From a virus: 20,657 nucleotides of DNA. The notes under the pieces are model-generated. The model was not told where the DNA came from, made no database searches, and was given only the letters and a program-made list of their open reading frames with translations. The stretch spans positions 1 through 20,657 of the IMG/VR virus record IMGVR_UViG_3300017757_004291, one strand, 5' to 3'. Below, piece after piece: positions 2,089 to 18,663 of the stretch (position 1 is the first letter of the stretch; each line of letters begins with the position of its first letter). Made by a program: the position numbers and the translations under genes.

Positions 2089-2490
2089 TTAATCCTGCCA
2101 GTTTTCTGGTATCTCTTGTTCTGGAGTTACAACTCTGGTTATACCGGCTTGAATTAAACCTTTTGCGCAATCATGACATATTGGTAAACCTATTACATAG
2201 ATTGTAGAACCTTTTAATGATACACCATTTTCCGCTGCATTATAAATTGCATTCATTTCTGCATGTACTATACGTTTATATTTTATTGCTCTATTCAAAT
2301 AATATAATTCATGATCATCAACACCTCTAGGAAAACCGTTATAACCTTGAGCTATAACAGTTCTATTTCTTACGGCAACTGAGCCGACTTGTGTTGAAGG
2401 ATCTTTAGACCATGACGCTACAAGTTTAGCCATTTCTAAAAATCTTATATCCCATTTATTTGACAAGATGAAAATGCCTTTCGTAAACAT
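2089..2490 (-). CDS. dCMP deaminase
   Basis: This is a zinc-dependent deoxycytidylate deaminase converting dCMP to dUMP in the cytoplasm. The core KWDIRFLEMAKLVASWSKDPSTQVGSV is typical of bacterial and phage dCMP deaminases. HAEMNA (about residue 77-82) supplies a zinc ligand and the catalytic Glu. CHDC (about residue 104-107) supplies the two Cys ligands, preceded by PI rather than the common PP or P. The ATG at 2490 overlaps the upstream hydroxymethylase by 35 nt and adds nine residues before the usual N-terminus. A TTG at 2466 with GAAAGG upstream would start right at SNKWD and is a credible alternative. It sits beside dCMP hydroxymethylase, so both enzymes compete for dCMP, as in T4. Confidence 0.9.
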   Translation of the reverse strand: MFTKGIFILSNKWDIRFLEMAKLVASWSKDPSTQVGSVAVRNRTVIAQGYNGFPRGVDDHELYYLNRAIKYKRIVHAEMNAIYNAAENGVSLKGSTIYVIGLPICHDCAKGLIQAGITRVVTPEQEIPENWQD

Positions 2491-3148
2491 GCAAGTTTTG
2501 TACTTGCCAGATTATGTCACCAACTTTTAATTCTGGTGTACCATCTTCTTTACAGTCATTATAGTCTTTTATCATTTGTTCTAAAACATAAAGCTGCCAA
2601 GCATAATCATTCTTGTATCCGAACACAACATCGTTTGAGCGCATTTGTACCACGGACTGTAAGTAATTATCGCGTATGTAATAAGTAACGGCGTTAGTAC
2701 ATATAAAATCATTTTTACCATCTTCATTATATTCCATCCATATACTAGGTCTTGTGTAAATCATTGAAGCTCTACGGCCATCTGGATTTGTTAGTAATTC
2801 ATCAAGCACTTGACCATACTGATGATGATACTTATCAGAATAAATTAAATGACCATAGTTAGAATTGATTTGACCAAAATCATTTGATGATGCTAGCCAA
2901 GCTTCAGGTACATTTCGATTATAATTTTCTTTAATCCAATTGACATTTGTTGATTGGCTTTCATACCATGCTTTTTCTATTTCTATATATGATTTGTTTG
3001 GTGTACCAAATATTGCTGGTTGATCAGCAAAGAAACTGGCACCGATAAGTTCAATAGTTTTTTGACCTGACCTATCCATAACAAAATCTTCTTTGTCCAA
3101 AGCATTAATAAAGTAATGTTTTATATCGCTTGTATTTTCTTGTATCAT
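2456..3148 (-). CDS. 42: Deoxycytidylate 5-hydroxymethylase (T4 gp42-like)
   Basis: This is a thymidylate-synthase-fold enzyme that puts a hydroxymethyl group on dCMP using methylene-tetrahydrofolate. The 230-aa sequence tracks T4 gp42 closely: DFVMDRSGQKTIELIGASF (residue 21-39), the IFG segment, GQINSNYG (92-99), RRASMIYTRPS (125-135), DFICTN with catalytic Cys150, and MRSNDVVFGYKNDYAW (169-184). Asp181 occupies the position where thymidylate synthases have the dUMP-selecting Asn; in T4 gp42 this residue (Asp179) goes with cytosine specificity. It is therefore a hydroxymethylase rather than a thymidylate synthase. The start overlaps the DUF1599-like gene by ATGA and has a strong GGAGGAAGGG upstream. 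The product would feed hmdCMP to kinases and gp43, giving hmC DNA that the downstream glucosyltransferase could modify. Confidence 0.92.
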   Translation of the reverse strand: MIQENTSDIKHYFINALDKEDFVMDRSGQKTIELIGASFFADQPAIFGTPNKSYIEIEKAWYESQSTNVNWIKENYNRNVPEAWLASSNDFGQINSNYGHLIYSDKYHHQYGQVLDELLTNPDGRRASMIYTRPSIWMEYNEDGKNDFICTNAVTYYIRDNYLQSVVQMRSNDVVFGYKNDYAWQLYVLEQMIKDYNDCKEDGTPELKVGDIIWQVQNLHVYERHFHLVK

Positions 3149-5950: not shown

Positions 5951-6035
5951 TGGCTGTTGGGGCAGGAGTCGAACCTGCACGCATTTCAGCACACGAGAAA
6001 CAATCGTGCGTGTCTACCAATTCCACCACCCAACA
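5951..6035 (-). tRNA. tRNA with long variable arm and GUU anticodon (Asn?)
   Basis: An 85-nt cloverleaf. The acceptor TGTTGGG pairs with CCCAACA, discriminator G, CCA encoded. The D arm is GTG-GAATTGGTAGA-CAC, of the leucine-tRNA type. The anticodon stem CACGA/TCGTG holds the loop TTGTTTC, so U33 is followed by GUU, reading AAU/AAC (Asn). The variable region is 13 nt with a 3-bp stem (TGC/GCG). The T arm is GCAGG-TTCGACT-CCTGC. A long variable arm is normal for Leu, Ser and bacterial Tyr tRNAs, not for Asn, while U1-A72 and G73 suit bacterial Asn tRNA. Position 37 is a pyrimidine, which is rare. It lies 6 nt after the stop of the synthetase-like gene and is surely co-transcribed with it, so RNase P must release it. 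Confidence 0.85.
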
Positions 6036-6041
6036 ATAAAC

Positions 6042-6857
6042 CTATATGGTCTCTAAAGCCGGGATCATTCTTGTTATTCCAATTCCTCCACCAACTCTTG
6101 GAAAGAAATCAAACTTTAAGAATTCTTCTAACTCTGCTTCTACTCTTTCTTTACCGAATAAATCAAATAAAAGATTAGCATAAGCACCTTCAGTTATTGT
6201 ATGAAATGTATCACGCATTTGATCCACATCAGTTGATCTTTCTGCTGATCCTATTGTTTCCATACCTCCAAGAATAACATCAATCTTTTTAGAATGTATT
6301 CCATCTTCATATCGACTCATATTCCAAAATGGACTCGTAAACTCTGGAAAGTCAGTAATCATTGTTGTTGTGTAATCATCAAACATCTTACCTTCATGCT
6401 CTGCAGTAAGTTCTCCATCAACACCATACTCTTTTTGCCATTCAGAATATTTCTTTTCTATTGGCTTTTTAAATCCTAAGTATTCAACGAGTTCATATTC
6501 CATTCTTGCAAGATCATATATGTTACCCGGCATTTCAAATTCAAACATCGGAAAGATTATATCGTGTCTTCCGGGTATTGCATTTGGTTCTTGCCTATAC
6601 GAAGTGGAGACACAAAAAAACCCCTTAGAATCAGGGGCGGATAATAATTCGTGTTCTAACCACATTTGACCTGTTTGTGGCAGTGGCCATACTTGGCCTG
6701 CATAATTGTAAGTTGCAACATTGAATGGATCTTCGCATGCTGCAAGGATAGATAATCTATTTTGAGTGTGTACTTCTAAAAAACCTTTATCTAAAAAAAA
6801 TGACCTTAAAAGGCCAACTGTGTCTGTGAATTTTTGGGGTGATATGAGTTGTGTCAT
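6042..6857 (-). CDS. Class II aminoacyl-tRNA synthetase core protein, Asp/Asn type, lacking anticodon domain
   Basis: This 271-aa protein is a class II (D/K/N group) catalytic core. Motif 1 is near KGFLEVHTQ. The amino-acid pocket loop WPLPQTGQMWLE recalls AspRS/AsnRS. Motif 2 is SYRQEPNAIPGRHDIIFPMFEFEM. The segment DVILGGMETIGSAERS matches the ETIG/GGSxR region, and motif 3 GGGIGITRM lies at the C-terminus. There is no N-terminal OB-fold anticodon-binding domain, so it is about 150-200 residues shorter than AsnRS or AspRS. It could be a minimal tRNA ligase, an AsnA-like asparagine synthetase or an amino-acid ligase acting on another target. The longer frame starts with TTG at 6887; I prefer the ATG at 6857, with AAGGAA 5 nt upstream. 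The tRNA with anticodon GUU follows at once. Confidence 0.8.
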   Translation of the reverse strand: MTQLISPQKFTDTVGLLRSFFLDKGFLEVHTQNRLSILAACEDPFNVATYNYAGQVWPLPQTGQMWLEHELLSAPDSKGFFCVSTSYRQEPNAIPGRHDIIFPMFEFEMPGNIYDLARMEYELVEYLGFKKPIEKKYSEWQKEYGVDGELTAEHEGKMFDDYTTTMITDFPEFTSPFWNMSRYEDGIHSKKIDVILGGMETIGSAERSTDVDQMRDTFHTITEGAYANLLFDLFGKERVEAELEEFLKFDFFPRVGGGIGITRMIPALETI

Positions 6858-8253: not shown

Positions 8254-10772
8254 ACGAAAAAATCCTCCAATGTTGCTTGTTCTTCGGCGGTCCAGCCGAT
8301 TGGGTTGAGTATTAAATTTAGTGGTTCGATAAATGTTTTTTCGAACTGTAAATCATAGTTAATATAGTTATGTAATTTTAATTCTTTTGGCAATACATCT
8401 TTAAATGATACTACATTTTGCTTTATAGAGTTTGGCATCTTTAAATAAACGAATTTAATTCTATCACCATTTGTTATAAGTTCATATTTATTATTTAGTT
8501 TATTTTGTTTAAGATAATAATTATGTAAGAGAGATCCTCTAACATGTATTGGACAACTCTTTTTGAATATTGTTTTTCTATCATGCCAATCCGTAATGTT
8601 TGTAACTCTACGTGGAAAAGCTACTTCTTCTGGTTGTAATGTTTTAAACTCTGCTTTAAAGTTAGCAATAAACTTTTGTGTTTCGGCTTCAGTACCAGAT
8701 ATTATAAGTTTAAATGCTTCTTTAAATTTATTACGAACTATTTCAGGTGTTGATGACTTAATTGCTTCAATACCCATAATCTTAAGTTTTGGTTCTGAAT
8801 ATTGAACACCTTCATTATTATGTACATTAAGAATATATCTTTTCTTTGCAGTCCAAATACCAACATCTGATATTGCTTCTCTTGCCATGACCATTCTATT
8901 TTTATATGCATTATGCATGAGGTAAAACTCGTGATAAGCCTTTTCTATAGCAGGTTCAAAATGTTTCTTACAAATTTCATCTAAGAATAAAACTGGATTC
9001 TTTGGTGCAAATTTCTCTACGAGTGGACCAAAGTTAACGTATAAAGAATCCGTATCAATTGCTATAACATAATCTTTATCTGTCTTAAGTAAATTGTTTA
9101 ATTCTCTATTCATAGTTTGTTCAGCCCACTTAATTGCTTTTTGGCCTGTAAGAGTAACACCTTCAGCAAGTGCTGGTCTGAAATATAAAAAGTGTTTGTT
9201 AGCAAGTGCACCATATAAACTATTAAGCAAGATTTTAATAGCTACTTGACGATTTTCAAGAGTGTTTATCTCTTTATCAAGTTCAACTGTATAACCTTTT
9301 TGCATTTGAGTTTTAGCTGCTAACATCATCTTCTTTACTGATACACGTTCATCATAATATTCTTCAATAATCTGTGGAAGTACACCTTGAAAGTCTTTAC
9401 GATAATATGTTTCATTAGCAGCTCTAACGTATTTATCGGGATCATCAATATGGTTTACTATAGTTTCTGGTGACATGTTGTTTTGAACAATAATGTTAGG
9501 ATATAGAGAATTCAAATCAAATGATACTACCCATTGATATTTTTTAGGGATTGGATCTTTTACATAACCGCCGGCGATATGATGTTTTTTACCTTGTTCA
9601 CGAAAAGCTGGTGATGGATTCTTTTTAGATGTGTCAGTTGCACCAATGATTTGATAATCATCAAAGTCTTGAGTAAGAGGAGTTATAATATTGTGTTGAC
9701 TTAATTTTTTACAAATAATAGATTCCCATATTGCTGTAACACCGAATGTGTCTTGATAATTAACACCACCCTTATAAGCTACAGTAATAGCTAAAGTAAT
9801 CAATCCAAGTTTTTCTTCAAGTCTATCAACTAATTGAATATCTTTCATATTATAATCGATGTACTTTTGATAATCATCTTTATAAAGATTTTTAAGCGAA
9901 CCTGATTCTTCATATGAAAGTTTCTTTTCGCCAAGTACAACATAAGCAATATGATTCAATGCATATGATTCTTGCGGACCGTATGTATAACCAAACTTTT
10001 GAAATAATTCCATGTAATCAAGTGTTTGTATTCCAGGAATCTCATAAACCATATTTTCTTTACCACGACTTGGTACCATTCTTGGAGGTGGTATTTGTAA
10101 TCCATAAGGAGAAAACTTTGATAGCCATTCAATACCTAAGACTTTAGAAACACGATTAATAATATACGGTATATCAAAAAATCTTGTATTCCAACCTGTT
10201 ATAATATCAGGCGTGATATCCGGATGAGACCAGAATTCTATAAACTTAGTGAGAAGTTCTTCTTCACTGTTACACCGAGTGTATTTAACATCTTTTATAA
10301 GAGAAGCTTCAGTATCAAAATCTCCATAGCCCCACACATGATATGTTGAATATTTACTTGACTTATACGATATTGATAATATAGTATGAGCAGCTTGGTC
10401 TGGATATGGAAAACCATCATCATAATCTGTTTCAATATCAAACGTACCAACGTTAATCATATTACGATTAAATTGAATATCTTGTGGAAACTTATCCATT
10501 GTGTATTGTGTAGTAAATCTTTTGTTACCGTATATACTTCTACCTGATACTTCAATATTGTCTTTAAACCATTGGCCGGCTTCATACATGCTATTAAATT
10601 CTATAGGTCCAACATAATTTCCATCTAAACTTTTAAATTTAGTTTTAGTATTTGATGTGACGTAGAACTTTGGTTTGTAATGTTCTTTTTTAATAACTCT
10701 ATCGCCGTTATCAGAATAACCACGATACAAAATATTATTTTTGTATCGTAATACGTTGGTGTAAAATGACAT
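8250..10772 (-). CDS. 43: Family B DNA polymerase (T4 gp43-like)
   Basis: This is the replicative DNA polymerase with 3'-5' exonuclease, 840 aa (T4 gp43 is 898). Exo I is FDIETD (D112, E114), Exo II is NTRFFDIPY (about 195-203), and Exo III is YNMKDIQLVD (about 307-316). Polymerase motif A is SFDLNSLYPNII (D419 region), motif B is KILLNSLYGALAN (513-525) and motif C is IDTDSLYVNF (572-581); KKRY follows. The C-terminus EEQATLEDFFV fits the consensus QxxLxxFF, the peptide with which T4-like polymerases grip the sliding clamp gp45. The same nucleotides contain the GGAGG for the MazG-like gene. The start follows the stop of the 60-aa gene directly with only a weak SD, so translational coupling is likely. 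Confidence 0.97.
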   Translation of the reverse strand: MSFYTNVLRYKNNILYRGYSDNGDRVIKKEHYKPKFYVTSNTKTKFKSLDGNYVGPIEFNSMYEAGQWFKDNIEVSGRSIYGNKRFTTQYTMDKFPQDIQFNRNMINVGTFDIETDYDDGFPYPDQAAHTILSISYKSSKYSTYHVWGYGDFDTEASLIKDVKYTRCNSEEELLTKFIEFWSHPDITPDIITGWNTRFFDIPYIINRVSKVLGIEWLSKFSPYGLQIPPPRMVPSRGKENMVYEIPGIQTLDYMELFQKFGYTYGPQESYALNHIAYVVLGEKKLSYEESGSLKNLYKDDYQKYIDYNMKDIQLVDRLEEKLGLITLAITVAYKGGVNYQDTFGVTAIWESIICKKLSQHNIITPLTQDFDDYQIIGATDTSKKNPSPAFREQGKKHHIAGGYVKDPIPKKYQWVVSFDLNSLYPNIIVQNNMSPETIVNHIDDPDKYVRAANETYYRKDFQGVLPQIIEEYYDERVSVKKMMLAAKTQMQKGYTVELDKEINTLENRQVAIKILLNSLYGALANKHFLYFRPALAEGVTLTGQKAIKWAEQTMNRELNNLLKTDKDYVIAIDTDSLYVNFGPLVEKFAPKNPVLFLDEICKKHFEPAIEKAYHEFYLMHNAYKNRMVMAREAISDVGIWTAKKRYILNVHNNEGVQYSEPKLKIMGIEAIKSSTPEIVRNKFKEAFKLIISGTEAETQKFIANFKAEFKTLQPEEVAFPRRVTNITDWHDRKTIFKKSCPIHVRGSLLHNYYLKQNKLNNKYELITNGDRIKFVYLKMPNSIKQNVVSFKDVLPKELKLHNYINYDLQFEKTFIEPLNLILNPIGWTAEEQATLEDFFV

Positions 10773-11656: not shown

Positions 11657-12179
11657 ATGATACCGCGTTATAAAATGGAATATTTCTTTCTTTTATTTTT
11701 GTAGATCCACCAAGCTTAGGTAAATCTATAACACATAAGACTGCTACAACTTTAGCTGATACACTTTCAACAATATCAATAGTTGCTTTCATTGTTCCGC
11801 CAGTGGCACAAAGATCATCTACAATAATTACGCGATCTTTATTACTAATACTGTCTTTTTGTATCTGTAACGTAGATGTACCATATTCTAAATCATATGT
11901 TTTAGATATTACTGGTCCGGGAAGCTTACCTTCTTTTCTTGCTAAAACTAAAGGTATAGACGAATTATGAGCTAAGGGCGCTGCAAATATAAAACCTCTT
12001 GCATCTATTCCTATAATTTTATCAGTATAGCTTTCACTAGTATACTTTATTAATTTTTTAAATATAAAATCATTTGTGAGTTTAAACCCGTCACCATTAC
12101 ATAAACCTGCGGTGTCTTTAAAACTTACACCTTTAACAGGCCAATCTTCAAAACTTCTAATGTAATCTTTTATTTTCAT
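11649..12179 (-). CDS. apt: Adenine phosphoribosyltransferase
   Basis: This type I phosphoribosyltransferase turns adenine plus PRPP into AMP. The 176-aa length is normal for APT. WPVKGVSFKD (about residue 13-22) is the APT-specific N-terminal signature. GIDARGFIFAAPLA (57-70) and ARKEGKLPG (80-88) match the active-site loops. VIIVDDLCATGGTM (117-130) is the PRPP-binding motif with two acidic residues. The start overlaps the oxygenase stop by ATGA. It sits after a BMP-family purine-binding protein and an oxygenase, which supports a salvage role for imported or released adenine. APT is uncommon on phages. Confidence 0.92.
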   Translation of the reverse strand: MKIKDYIRSFEDWPVKGVSFKDTAGLCNGDGFKLTNDFIFKKLIKYTSESYTDKIIGIDARGFIFAAPLAHNSSIPLVLARKEGKLPGPVISKTYDLEYGTSTLQIQKDSISNKDRVIIVDDLCATGGTMKATIDIVESVSAKVVAVLCVIDLPKLGGSTKIKERNIPFYNAVSYE

Positions 12180-13036
12180 TTATAAGTTTGCTCTAATCTA
12201 AATTCCAAATATTCATCACTGAAAACTGGACGATACTTTGTTGGTGTGTCATGTATATTAACTACGGCTGTTCTCGGTTTAGGATCAACAAAATGTGGCA
12301 TACTATATCTTGGTAAATGTATGTGTGAATTTACAACTCTATGTTTTGTACTTACAAAATAATCATTAGTCCATCTTTGTAATAGATCACCGATGTTAAC
12401 AACGACTCCATCTTTTGCATAAGGAACTGGATGCCATTGGCCTTCTAAGTCTTGTACTTCCAACCCTGGTACATCATTAATCTGCCATAATAGTGTAATG
12501 GTACCGTAGTCAGAATGTTCACCTATTCTCAATTGTTTTGGTTCAATGTCACCTTCATATGCTGGATAGTGTATAAACCTTGTAGTACTATAGTTTTCTT
12601 TATGTGCATCAACAAGAACAGTACGGCTTTTCATTATATTATCAAATTTTTCTAATATATTAAGTGTAAGTCTATCTGCTATATCAATACTTTCTAAAGC
12701 GGATGGTTTAAAATCTTTTATTTCTGTTGGCCAGTTTGTAGTTCTTTTATCGTTATAATTAAAACTCTCTTTCATATCTTTTGGTGCGGTAGGATCCACG
12801 TTTTCTTTTAACCACATAGTGTAACCTATATTAGATTCAATACCTTCATATGCGTATTGCATCTTTTTTTCGAGAGATAAAGTAAAAAATTCTTTCATTT
12901 TCTCCGACCAAGCTTCCATTGAATCCTGCTCATGAGATGTTAGGCAATCAGTAAATACAGCGAAGCCTACAGTCGTGTAGGCTTCTTTAATTTTATCGAG
13001 GACGTTAGGCCCTTTAAAATCAATTACTGGTATCAT
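12176..13036 (-). CDS. 2-oxoglutarate/Fe(II)-dependent oxygenase, isopenicillin-N-synthase family
   Basis: This 286-aa cytoplasmic non-haem iron oxygenase has the facial triad H174-x-D176 (GEHSDYGTITLL) and H232 (STKHRVVN). The RxS motif RYSMPHF (243-249) binds the 2-oxoglutarate carboxylate. The N-terminal IPVIDF and GFAVFTD segments are the DIOX_N-type start. The substrate cannot be deduced from sequence. The ATGA overlaps with both the purine-binding protein and APT suggest that it acts on a purine or purine derivative, for instance oxidative dealkylation that frees adenine for APT. That is a hypothesis. Other uses, such as amino-acid or nucleobase hydroxylation, remain possible. Confidence 0.85.
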   Translation of the reverse strand: MIPVIDFKGPNVLDKIKEAYTTVGFAVFTDCLTSHEQDSMEAWSEKMKEFFTLSLEKKMQYAYEGIESNIGYTMWLKENVDPTAPKDMKESFNYNDKRTTNWPTEIKDFKPSALESIDIADRLTLNILEKFDNIMKSRTVLVDAHKENYSTTRFIHYPAYEGDIEPKQLRIGEHSDYGTITLLWQINDVPGLEVQDLEGQWHPVPYAKDGVVVNIGDLLQRWTNDYFVSTKHRVVNSHIHLPRYSMPHFVDPKPRTAVVNIHDTPTKYRPVFSDEYLEFRLEQTYK

Positions 13037-14100
13037 TTTGGCACCGTAGCGTCTATGCCTTCGACATAGTACATCATGCTATTTAAATGAGCATCACTAG
13101 CAATCTCTCCATCTTTTAATTGAAGTTTACCAGTGTTGTCTTTAATAGGTCCAGTGAAAGCAAAGTACTTACCATCTGTAATACCTTCTTTAATTTTCTG
13201 TGCAAATGCTTCAACATCTACAGGCATATTAGTAAATGGCGCCATTTGTACGACATCATCTTTCATATGACCAAAGTAATCTCCAGTTTTCCAATTACCA
13301 TCTATAACTGCTTGTACCTTTTCAATATAATAAGGAGACCAGTTATCGATAGTAGCAGTAAGCTGTGCTTTTGGTGCAAATCTTATTTGATCAGAAGCCT
13401 GACCAAAACCTGTTACACCATTTTTCTGTGCAGTTTGTAGAGGTGCAGGTGAATCAGTATGTTGAGCTACCATGTCACATCCTTCTGCAATCATAACCGC
13501 TGCAGCATCAGCTTCCTTAGGTGGATTGTACCAAGAGTTTACCCATACAATATCGATGTCAACTTTTGGATTCATTTTCTTTGCGCCTAAGTAGAAAGTA
13601 TTAATTTCTCTAATTACTTCAGGAATTGGAAATGCACCTACATAACAAATCTTATTTGTTTTAGTCATCATTCCAGCGATAATTCCTTGAACGTGTCTTG
13701 CTTGATATAATCTTAAACCATAGCTAGCCATGTTTTCAGATTGCTTGTAACCAGTTGCATGTTCAAATTTTACATTTGGAAATTCTTTAGCAACTTTTAA
13801 CATAGGTTCCATATAACCAAAAGATGTAGCGAATATAATATCAGCTCCGTCTTTTGCCATAGCCCTTATTGCTCTTTCGGCATCAGGTCCATACTTTACA
13901 CTTTCCATGTATATAGTTTCTACTTTATCACCAAAATGTTTTTCAACATCAAGTCGACCAATATCATGTCTGTAAGTCCAACCGTGGTCGCCGATAGGTC
14001 CTACGTATATAAATCCAACTTTCACCTTGTCAGCGTACGCTGACAAACAAAAAAACAAAGACAGTGTTGCCACTGCCATTGCGTGCAGTATCGATTTCAT
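13033..14100 (-). CDS. BMP-family ABC transporter periplasmic substrate-binding protein
   Basis: This exported 355-aa protein is of the Bmp/PnrA family, whose characterised members bind purine nucleosides. The N-terminus is a Sec signal peptide: Lys2, a hydrophobic run to about residue 20, then SAYA|DK as a signal-peptidase I site. There is no lipobox, so it is soluble in the periplasm. The mature part begins VKVGFIYVGPIGDHGWTYRHD, typical of BMP proteins. MVAQHTDSPAPLQTAQKNG and GFGQASDQIRFAPKAQLTATIDNW are family landmarks. No permease or ATPase is nearby, so it must use the host transporter. SD AAGGAG is 6 nt upstream of the ATG, and the stop overlaps the oxygenase (ATGA). A transporter-binding protein on a phage is unusual. 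Confidence 0.9.
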   Translation of the reverse strand: MKSILHAMAVATLSLFFCLSAYADKVKVGFIYVGPIGDHGWTYRHDIGRLDVEKHFGDKVETIYMESVKYGPDAERAIRAMAKDGADIIFATSFGYMEPMLKVAKEFPNVKFEHATGYKQSENMASYGLRLYQARHVQGIIAGMMTKTNKICYVGAFPIPEVIREINTFYLGAKKMNPKVDIDIVWVNSWYNPPKEADAAAVMIAEGCDMVAQHTDSPAPLQTAQKNGVTGFGQASDQIRFAPKAQLTATIDNWSPYYIEKVQAVIDGNWKTGDYFGHMKDDVVQMAPFTNMPVDVEAFAQKIKEGITDGKYFAFTGPIKDNTGKLQLKDGEIASDAHLNSMMYYVEGIDATVPK

Positions 14101-17256: not shown

Positions 17257-17476
17257 TTTTTTGTACCATTGATTGTAATTCTGTGACTATAGGAACTATT
17301 GTAGCATCCCACCATTTTATAAATTCATTGTAGTTATTATCGAAATATGATTCTTTTATAAAGTTTTCAACTTGTAAACATTCAAATGCCATAGATGGTT
17401 GTATTATACTATGTGCTGATAATAACTCACACATTGCAAGTTGATTTACAAATTGATTTAACATTTCTGTTTCCAT
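17243..17476 (-). CDS. Hypothetical small protein between the flavoprotein and gp62
   Basis: This unrecognised 77-aa helical protein begins METEMLNQFVNQLAMCELLSAHS and contains FIKWWDATIVPIVTELQSM. I chose the ATG at 17476, which has AAAGGA upstream and forms a TAATG junction with the oxidoreductase gene. The longer frame from 17524 overlaps that gene by 49 nt and is not needed. Confidence 0.65.
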   Translation of the reverse strand: METEMLNQFVNQLAMCELLSAHSIIQPSMAFECLQVENFIKESYFDNNYNEFIKWWDATIVPIVTELQSMVQKNESL

Positions 17477-18663
17477 TATATATCCTTTGTTAACTTTTCT
17501 GCTAGTGCCATTCCCATTGTCCAACCAAGATGACCGGCACCGCTATTAACCCATAAGCCTTTTACTTTACCAACAACAGGTAACATATTCGGTGTCATTG
17601 GTCTTAAGCATGACCATTTCTCATAATTATCTTTATCAACAAAAGTATTTTCTTTTACCCAGTCGGCTAAAGGTTTAATTCTGTCTTCCCTCATATCATG
17701 ATTCCAACCGGCAAGTTCTGCTGTACCTGCAACTCTAAATACATTATTACCAAAAGGCGAAGCTACTATTTTTCTATCGTCATCAAGCACAGATATAGTA
17801 GGAGCTTCATAAGCATTTTGATATGTTATAGAATAACCTTTGATTGGATATATATTTAAATTTGGTAAAAATGTTTTTGTATATGCACCTGCACATACTA
17901 TAACTTCATCATAATCTTTTTTAAGGGTATCGATACTTATTGCCATATCTCTTCGATTCGACCAATAGACTTCATCTTCATTACGAACAATTTTATTAAT
18001 ACGAAAACTATAATTATATTTTTTATCAGAAAGCATATGAGTTTGTAGTGCAGTACAAAAGGCATGTATATCACCAACTGAATCACCTTTAGTTATAGTA
18101 GCACCTACCACATCATTTGATTTAATATTATACTTTATAAGATTTGTTTTTGTTTTAACTCTACCCCAACCAGTGTCTTTAAATCTATCTAGAGTTCTTT
18201 GTGCTTTATCCCAAGACTTTTGATTTTTATATATGTGTAATATACCACAGTCATTATGATGAAAGTCAATGTCTATTTCTTTCATTAATTTTTTAAGTAA
18301 CTTACGAGATCTTAAACTATATTCAATAGTTCTACGTGTGTTATAATCGTACTTATTAGTTATGGTTGCACCAATAAAACCAGCAATCCATTTAATTTTA
18401 GACCAAGACCAATGATCTGGTCTAAAAGCAAGAGGTGCATCAGGTTGTGTTAACCATTTAACACCTTTGATTATATTATCGTAACTATTCCACACTTCTG
18501 CATTACATACAGAAAGTTGACCACCGTTTGCGTAACTACATTGTTCAGCCACACCGTTTGGATCAAATAATACTACTTTATATTTTTTAGCTAGGAAGTA
18601 TGCAGTGGTTATGCCAGCGACACCTCCACCGATAATGGCTATGCTCTTTTTAGAGTTCCCCAA
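17476..18663 (-). CDS. FAD-dependent D-amino-acid dehydrogenase-like oxidoreductase (DadA family)
   Basis: This 395-aa flavoenzyme of the DAO/DadA group oxidises an amine such as a D-amino acid. The N-terminal Rossmann motif IAIIGGGVAGITTAYFLAKK (residue 8-27) binds FAD. EQCSYANGGQLS (about 40-51) is the DadA-like flavin loop. VIVCAGAYT, RPMTPNMLPVVG and SGAGHLGWTMGMALAEKL at the C-terminus complete the FAD site. The start is TTG at 18663, with GGAG 7 nt upstream inside the glutaredoxin gene (25-nt overlap). No export signal is seen. It interrupts the T4 order gp44-gp62, so it appears to be an acquired metabolic gene carried in the core replication operon. Substrate unknown. Confidence 0.85.
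   Translation of the reverse strand: MGNSKKSIAIIGGGVAGITTAYFLAKKYKVVLFDPNGVAEQCSYANGGQLSVCNAEVWNSYDNIIKGVKWLTQPDAPLAFRPDHWSWSKIKWIAGFIGATITNKYDYNTRRTIEYSLRSRKLLKKLMKEIDIDFHHNDCGILHIYKNQKSWDKAQRTLDRFKDTGWGRVKTKTNLIKYNIKSNDVVGATITKGDSVGDIHAFCTALQTHMLSDKKYNYSFRINKIVRNEDEVYWSNRRDMAISIDTLKKDYDEVIVCAGAYTKTFLPNLNIYPIKGYSITYQNAYEAPTISVLDDDRKIVASPFGNNVFRVAGTAELAGWNHDMREDRIKPLADWVKENTFVDKDNYEKWSCLRPMTPNMLPVVGKVKGLWVNSGAGHLGWTMGMALAEKLTKDI

Follow-up and report, generated by a model that had tools for sequence, protein, structure and literature searches.

A free-standing AsnRS-like core paired with an unusual tRNA-Asn in marine phages, and its possible role in pyrimidine synthesis

The closest described relative of the synthetase-like gene (RS) analysed here is AsnRS, which shares with RS the class IIb core and its motifs, gives the best match in sequence and fold, and carries the same Leu-Glu pocket motif. 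Unlike AsnRS, RS lacks the N-terminal OB-fold, scores far under the curated cut-offs, has an invariant Gln in place of the motif 1 proline throughout its family, and is found in pyrimidine operons. Archaeal asparagine synthetase A (AS-AR, PDB 3p8t) likewise stands alone as a core derived from AsnRS/AspRS, about 290 aa long, but its sequence is distant and, as far as is known, it is linked to neither a tRNA nor a pyr gene. EpmA/GenX and other repurposed aaRS paralogues also consist of a class IIb core without an anticodon domain; their substrates, however, are proteins and their chemistry that of lysine. Precedents for the use of aminoacyl-tRNA in small-molecule synthesis are the cyclodipeptide synthases, which are class I-like, and glutamyl-tRNA reductase (GluTR), although their folds are unrelated to RS and their products are different. 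The staphylococcal non-proteogenic tRNA-Gly has kept its identity anticodon without being meant for the ribosome, but it carries another amino acid and serves the cell wall. Defence-escape phage tRNAs of the T5 type include a tRNA-Asn(GUU) variant, like the tRNA studied here, but no linked synthetase or pyrimidine genes have been described for them (PMC12409363).

The locus and its protein

The window, that is the whole stretch of DNA analysed, is a virus fragment of 20,657 bases (IMG/VR record IMGVR_UViG_3300017757_004291) with T4-like replication genes. The features of the locus are as follows.

6042-6857, minus strand: free-standing AsnRS-like class IIb catalytic core (Pfam, AF2 model, structural matches to AsnRS)
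6036-6041, minus strand: spacer of 6 nt from stop codon to tRNA, presumably within one transcript
5951-6035, minus strand: class II tRNA (long variable arm) with GUU anticodon and encoded CCA (ARAGORN, Rfam)
5999-6001, minus strand: anticodon GUU, invariant in 154 loci scanned with no anticodon required
5998, minus strand: position 37, a U; a purine in other tRNAs of related phages
5979-5991, minus strand: variable region of 13 nt, with a stem that covaries (range in relatives 11-38 nt)
5951-5954, minus strand: discriminator G73 and encoded CCA

From the 6-nt gap we infer that RS and the tRNA lie on one transcript. The open reading frame encodes 271 aa and begins MTQLI, a start that relatives support. 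Pfam tRNA-synt_2 covered residues 14-266 (E=1e-15) and no second Pfam domain was found in the protein, which belongs to phrog_29758, annotated 'unknown function'. The OB-fold anticodon-binding domain is absent: all 271 aa form the core, and homologues begin at about the same site. The first-pass annotation, made from the sequence alone, had described a 271-aa class II core of the Asp/Asn type without this domain, and the Pfam result agrees.

The AF2 model of the protein had a mean pLDDT of 94.2 and a pTM of 0.91. Among known structures it was closest to AsnRS (Z 27.4, 2.1 A over 245 residues), followed by AspRS (Z 26.1), archaeal asparagine synthetase A (3rex/3p8t, 23.9) and GenX (23.6). The family profile also placed AsnRS on top at 6.6e-13, with AS-AR at 9.8e-5; the grouping with AsnA, which the first-pass annotation had named as grounds for giving up its reading, was not seen. 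With the best curated AsnRS/ND-AspRS model, whose cut-off is 353 bits, the window protein scored 26, and other members scored similarly. With the PRK06462 models the window protein had no match at 1e-3, and the scored matches of family members reached 19-26 bits, with cut-offs of 322-389. Membership of AsnA was dropped on these profile and curated-model scores.

The class II motifs 2 and 3 and the pocket, YRxE, GGGIGxxR and QTGQxxLE, are invariant or nearly so across the RS family. In alignments QTGQxxLE shares its Leu-Glu with AsnRS, and AspRS shows Lys-Gln instead; we take these to be the amino acid pocket residues of the AsnRS type. Phage and cellular members together have 51 invariant alignment columns, which argues for one chemistry. 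RS is a class IIb core derived from AsnRS.

Elsewhere in the window, genes for a DNA alpha-glucosyltransferase (393-1673), a dCMP deaminase (2089-2490) and a thymidylate-synthase-like protein, possibly a dCMP hydroxymethylase (2456-3148), perhaps point to glucosylated hydroxymethylcytosine DNA. Unusually for a phage, 13033-14100 encodes a PnrA-like (Bmp) ABC transporter substrate-binding protein, the start of which is signal-like. An isopenicillin N synthase-type 2OG-Fe(II) oxygenase is encoded at 12176-13036 and an FAD amino-acid oxidoreductase (DAO) at 17476-18663. An Rfam match to Entero_CRE at 8307-8364 was under the gathering score and was taken as chance.

The tRNA and its linkage to RS

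The tRNA of 85 nt was called tRNA-Asn(GUU) by ARAGORN. A covariance-model search, of the kind suggested in the first-pass annotation, gave an Rfam tRNA match of 48.3 bits (gathering score 29, E=1e-7). The GUU long-arm tRNA 6 nt downstream of RS was confirmed by both programs, and U1-A72, G73, the Leu-like D arm and the 13-nt variable region were all as first described, with an encoded CCA in addition. In cellular genomes with RS the covariance model R1 retrieves tRNA-Leu first, which bears out the Leu-like body of the tRNA.

Related loci were collected from IMG/VR together with P-SSM7, P-SSM2 and P-SSM5; most of the phage loci are fragments. When the DNA downstream of RS was scanned for tRNAs with no anticodon required, a long-arm tRNA was observed near RS in 154 of 165 related marine-phage loci, mostly no more than 20 nt beyond the stop codon. 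All 154 had GUU and G73. Since adjacency and tRNA features recur in this way, the pairing is not due to chance. Many of these tRNAs are overlooked or misread by ARAGORN because the variable region is up to 38 nt long. The reverse scan of viral contigs for such tRNAs found RS in the contig for 40 of 43 real tRNAs, nearly always upstream of the tRNA on the same strand. Two of the remaining tRNAs lie in short fragments, and one, in the long contig L383, is a true exception. The adjacency that the first-pass annotation proposed to look for in other phages is therefore kept in both directions: an AsnRS-like gene with its own odd tRNA-Asn immediately after it is present in many ocean phages.

In the RS tree, which takes in some bins that are probably phage contigs, three separate groups have the long-arm GUU tRNA: L177, L174/L176 and the main marine clade. 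In L182, placed near L177, the tRNA-Asn at the end is of the ordinary kind. No tRNA was found near RS in four main-clade phages (L031, L068, L568 and L569), and the huge phages L084 and L085 have RS without a nearby tRNA and an ordinary tRNA-Asn elsewhere in the genome. Beyond RS and the tRNA, the gene neighbourhood differs from phage to phage.

The initial statement that no such phage system had been described holds for function only. The pair is carried by P-SSM2, P-SSM5 and P-SSM7, where it is annotated just as 'tRNA ligase' plus tRNA-Asn, and a literature search, preprints excepted, returned no description of the RS-tRNA system and none of a dihydroorotate synthase. In P-SSM2 (L082, NC_006883.2) the annotated tRNA-Asn, PSSM2_199, is misplaced by about 2 kb, inside PSSM2_205 (about 162,082 instead of 164,094-164,179); the true tRNA directly follows RS, which is consistent with the locus tag.

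The anticodon loop in the window is UUGUUUC, with a U at position 37 that the first-pass annotation had overlooked. Loop statistics were taken from 110 distinct tRNAs, found with GUU required. Position 37 was a pyrimidine in 99 of these (U in 96, C in 3) and A in 11, and U33 was absent in 11, whereas the other tRNAs of the same phage loci had purine 37 and U33 in 59 of 59 cases. U1-A72 was present in 106/110. The stems of the distinct tRNAs vary freely with compensation, and in an alignment of 18 sequences 19 of 23 base pairs, the variable-arm stem included, had changed on both sides (0/500 shuffles). The RS-linked tRNAs have the GUU anticodon and G73 of an ordinary elongator tRNA-Asn; they depart from it in their variable region, which is 11-38 nt instead of short, in a purine 37 that is mostly lost and in a U33 that is not universal. 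Anticodon GUU and G73 constitute the identity set for Asn in bacteria (PMC9976931). A core that lacks the anticodon domain has no need of its own for GUU; its retention must be due to decoding or to a host enzyme that reads the anticodon. The lost purine 37 and U33 favour the host enzyme, although the strict GUU could equally be explained by decoding.

Cellular homologues and the pyrimidine neighbourhood

Cellular homologues with 40-51% identity occur in Patescibacteria, Woesearchaeota, Pacearchaeota, Dependentiae, Chlamydiota, Coatesbacteria, Pasteurella atlantica and others; the archaea that carry them belong to DPANN. An adjacent tRNA-Asn was found at none of the clearly cellular homologues, and the special long-arm tRNA-Asn was not found among the matches examined in cellular genomes with RS. 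In three such genomes the long-arm matches examined were tRNAs for Leu, Ser and Tyr, and an ordinary tRNA-Asn was present. P. atlantica has a full AsnRS besides its RS homologue. The use of a Bandiella genome as proof of RS as sole AsnRS was abandoned because the assembly has just 22 tRNAs and also lacks GlnRS and GatB; a general argument from the absence of AsnRS, GatB or AsnB was given up as well, there being no clear pattern in genomes with RS. Five sequences labelled as archaeal or bacterial MAGs (L283, L294, L295, L300 and L312) cluster with phage members or hold the phage pair and are probably phage contigs in bins; L294 and L312 have an adjacent tRNA-Asn and look like such contigs.

De novo pyrimidine synthesis starts with carbamoyl phosphate, aspartate transcarbamoylase and dihydroorotase, which is held to be the sole way. 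Among 262 neighbours of cellular homologues there were 15 PyrF, 12 phosphoribosyltransferases, largely of the PyrE type, and 5 PyrD, and PyrE models matched nine proteins in the first neighbour set. In P. atlantica the RS homologue lies between PyrD and PyrF. The early enzymes were scarce in the 42 genomes with a cellular homologue: PyrB was above the cut-off in 5, CarB in 4 and PyrC in 3, compared with 14/14, 14/14 and 11/14 in control genomes. Later pyrimidine steps are kept and earlier ones missing, but the loss of CarB and PyrB is partly the baseline of reduced genomes, a confounder. The PyrB cut-off was passed by one of 13 surveyed genomes with a pyr neighbour at the RS locus. The complete chromosome of P. 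atlantica contains no CarB and no PyrC, and its PyrB match, under the cut-off, is probably of the ornithine type. Two patescibacterial loci (L265 and L305) have RS beside PyrE-like, amidohydrolase-like and argininosuccinate-lyase-like proteins, and these extra neighbours are possibly a further part of the pathway.

In phages, PyrE or PyrD was found within 3 kb in 10 of 168 paired loci, and a pyr gene within that distance in none of 36 unpaired viral loci. PyrE was also present in 5/78 background loci, some of which contain RS. A scan for phage PyrD-like proteins gave 44 loci, 13 of them with RS within 3 kb. The operons observed were RS-tRNA-PyrF-PyrD (L599 and L600, the latter with DNA polymerase next), PyrD-RS-tRNA-PyrE-like (L566, L567 and L574, the last identical to L056), PyrD-RS-tRNA (L580-583 and L585), RS-PyrD (L568 and L569) and RS-tRNA-PyrE (L162); PyrE lies upstream of RS in L104, L109 and L126. 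Phage PyrD and PyrF were confirmed by Pfam. The phage PyrE proteins of 178-184 aa had weak Pfam matches to the phosphoribosyltransferase family; orotate phosphoribosyltransferase is the annotation given to the relatives of these proteins in P-SSM2, P-SSM5 and P-SSM7. The PyrE-like protein of 126-130 aa, called by a look at the sequence, had no Pfam match and is the weakest part of the phage pyrimidine link.

When 50,697 phage records were searched, the only named isolates with close PyrE homologues (>50% identity) were P-SSM2, P-SSM5 and P-SSM7, which are exactly the named isolates with RS. In cyanophages, pyrE has been described as a host gene that increases with depth, but not in relation to the RS-tRNA pair (PMC9983427). 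No pyr gene was seen in the window fragment; the conserved linkage to PyrD, PyrE and PyrF is a property of the RS family, for which the link to pyrimidine synthesis is well supported.

Possible roles of the pair

Gene neighbourhoods in phages and bacteria suggest that RS works in pyrimidine synthesis instead of, or besides, protein synthesis. Our preferred reading, held tentatively and at somewhat less than an even chance, is that the pair is a phage metabolic module, an AsnRS-derived alternative pyrimidine route with the tRNA as Asn carrier, rather than a simple translation pair. RS would bind asparagine and ATP and open pyrimidine synthesis by converting Asn (or Asp), with bicarbonate and ATP, to dihydroorotate or its immediate precursor. 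A possible chemistry would be carboxylation of the alpha-amine of Asn, activation of the resulting carbamate by ATP, and ring closure by the beta-amide nitrogen, which would become N3. With its Asn identity retained (GUU, G73 and mostly U1-A72), the phage tRNA would be charged with Asn, while the altered anticodon loop would exclude it from the ribosome; we infer a dedicated role for it as a private Asn carrier, which would serve RS while translation runs at full speed. The complete version, in which RS makes dihydroorotate from Asn, bicarbonate and ATP, bypassing CarAB, PyrB and PyrC, and phage Asn arrives on a dedicated tRNA excluded from the ribosome, is doubtful. Counted in favour of the metabolic module were the linkage, the Asn identity combined with an abnormal loop, the Pyr context, the missing early enzymes and the 51 invariant columns. 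Against it stand the cellular homologues without a special tRNA, main-clade phage RS genes without a nearby tRNA, the window without a pyr gene, the mere 10/168 paired loci with one, and the baseline loss of CarB and PyrB.

The first-pass annotation had proposed a self-contained orthogonal pair or a tRNA used outside translation. The latter agrees with the present reading; a plain orthogonal translation pair is weakened by a cellular family that lacks the special tRNA and often sits in pyrimidine operons, by phage pairs inside such operons, and by the lost purine 37 and sometimes U33. It is nevertheless the main rival, unlikely on balance: a minimal AsnRS would read the acceptor stem and long arm and load Asn onto the tRNA. 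AAY codons would then be served from a supply that gets round the cleavage of host tRNA-Asn (for example by PARIS or colicin-like nucleases) or the indirect Asp-tRNA/GatCAB route. The near-perfect linkage, the invariant GUU, AsnRS as best match in sequence and structure, and a pocket with Leu-Glu and not the Lys-Gln of AspRS all fit such a pair, as do L182, which joins the same protein to an ordinary tRNA-Asn, and the fact that tRNA-Asn(GUU) is a PARIS target rescued by phage tRNAs (PMC12409363). Linkage and GUU are covered in this way, but not the pyrimidine operons of cells and phages, nor a loop altered in the RS-linked tRNA only, and a full AsnRS is also present in cells like those of P. 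atlantica. Rather less probable is a pyrimidine enzyme acting on free Asn or Asp, for which the tRNA would not be a substrate and would be kept for regulation by Asn supply, for decoding or for escape from defence. Such an enzyme suits the strong pyrimidine link and the cellular and phage members without a linked tRNA; it does not account for a linkage of this tightness, found again in three parts of the RS tree and kept while the rest of the phage neighbourhood varies. An enzyme of the asparagine synthetase A type (the archaeal AS-AR kind), producing free Asn, is improbable. It shares the free-standing core, similar size and fold (3rex/3p8t, Z 23.9) and has weak PRK06462 model matches to its credit, but those with scores are far under the cut-off, its profile match is far weaker than that of AsnRS (9.8e-5 vs 6.6e-13), and the tRNA and the pyrimidine genes are left unexplained.

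If the metabolic module is correct, the tRNA would be a cofactor of nucleotide synthesis, and to our knowledge no tRNA has previously been linked to pyrimidine synthesis. A widespread aaRS-like family that occurs where the usual enzymes are absent, both in bacteria and archaea with minimal genomes and in abundant marine phages, would then be a new first step of the pathway and would account for the UMP made by genomes with only PyrD, PyrE and PyrF. A private translation pair would in turn be a new natural orthogonal pair of an anticodon-blind synthetase and a non-standard tRNA.

The long variable arm might hinder the host AsnRS, a point that counts against the metabolic module. In L018, L030, L051 and L080 the arm is 28-31 nt long and has a common GCAA-containing hairpin loop, which is a candidate recognition element. 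Long-arm tRNAs were also observed in other settings: with unexpected anticodons in other phages (L530, L514 and L515), as a tRNA-Asn and a tRNA-Thr of 84-86 nt in a 149-kb phage with RS elsewhere, and as a tRNA-Pro of 99 nt in a 484-kb phage.
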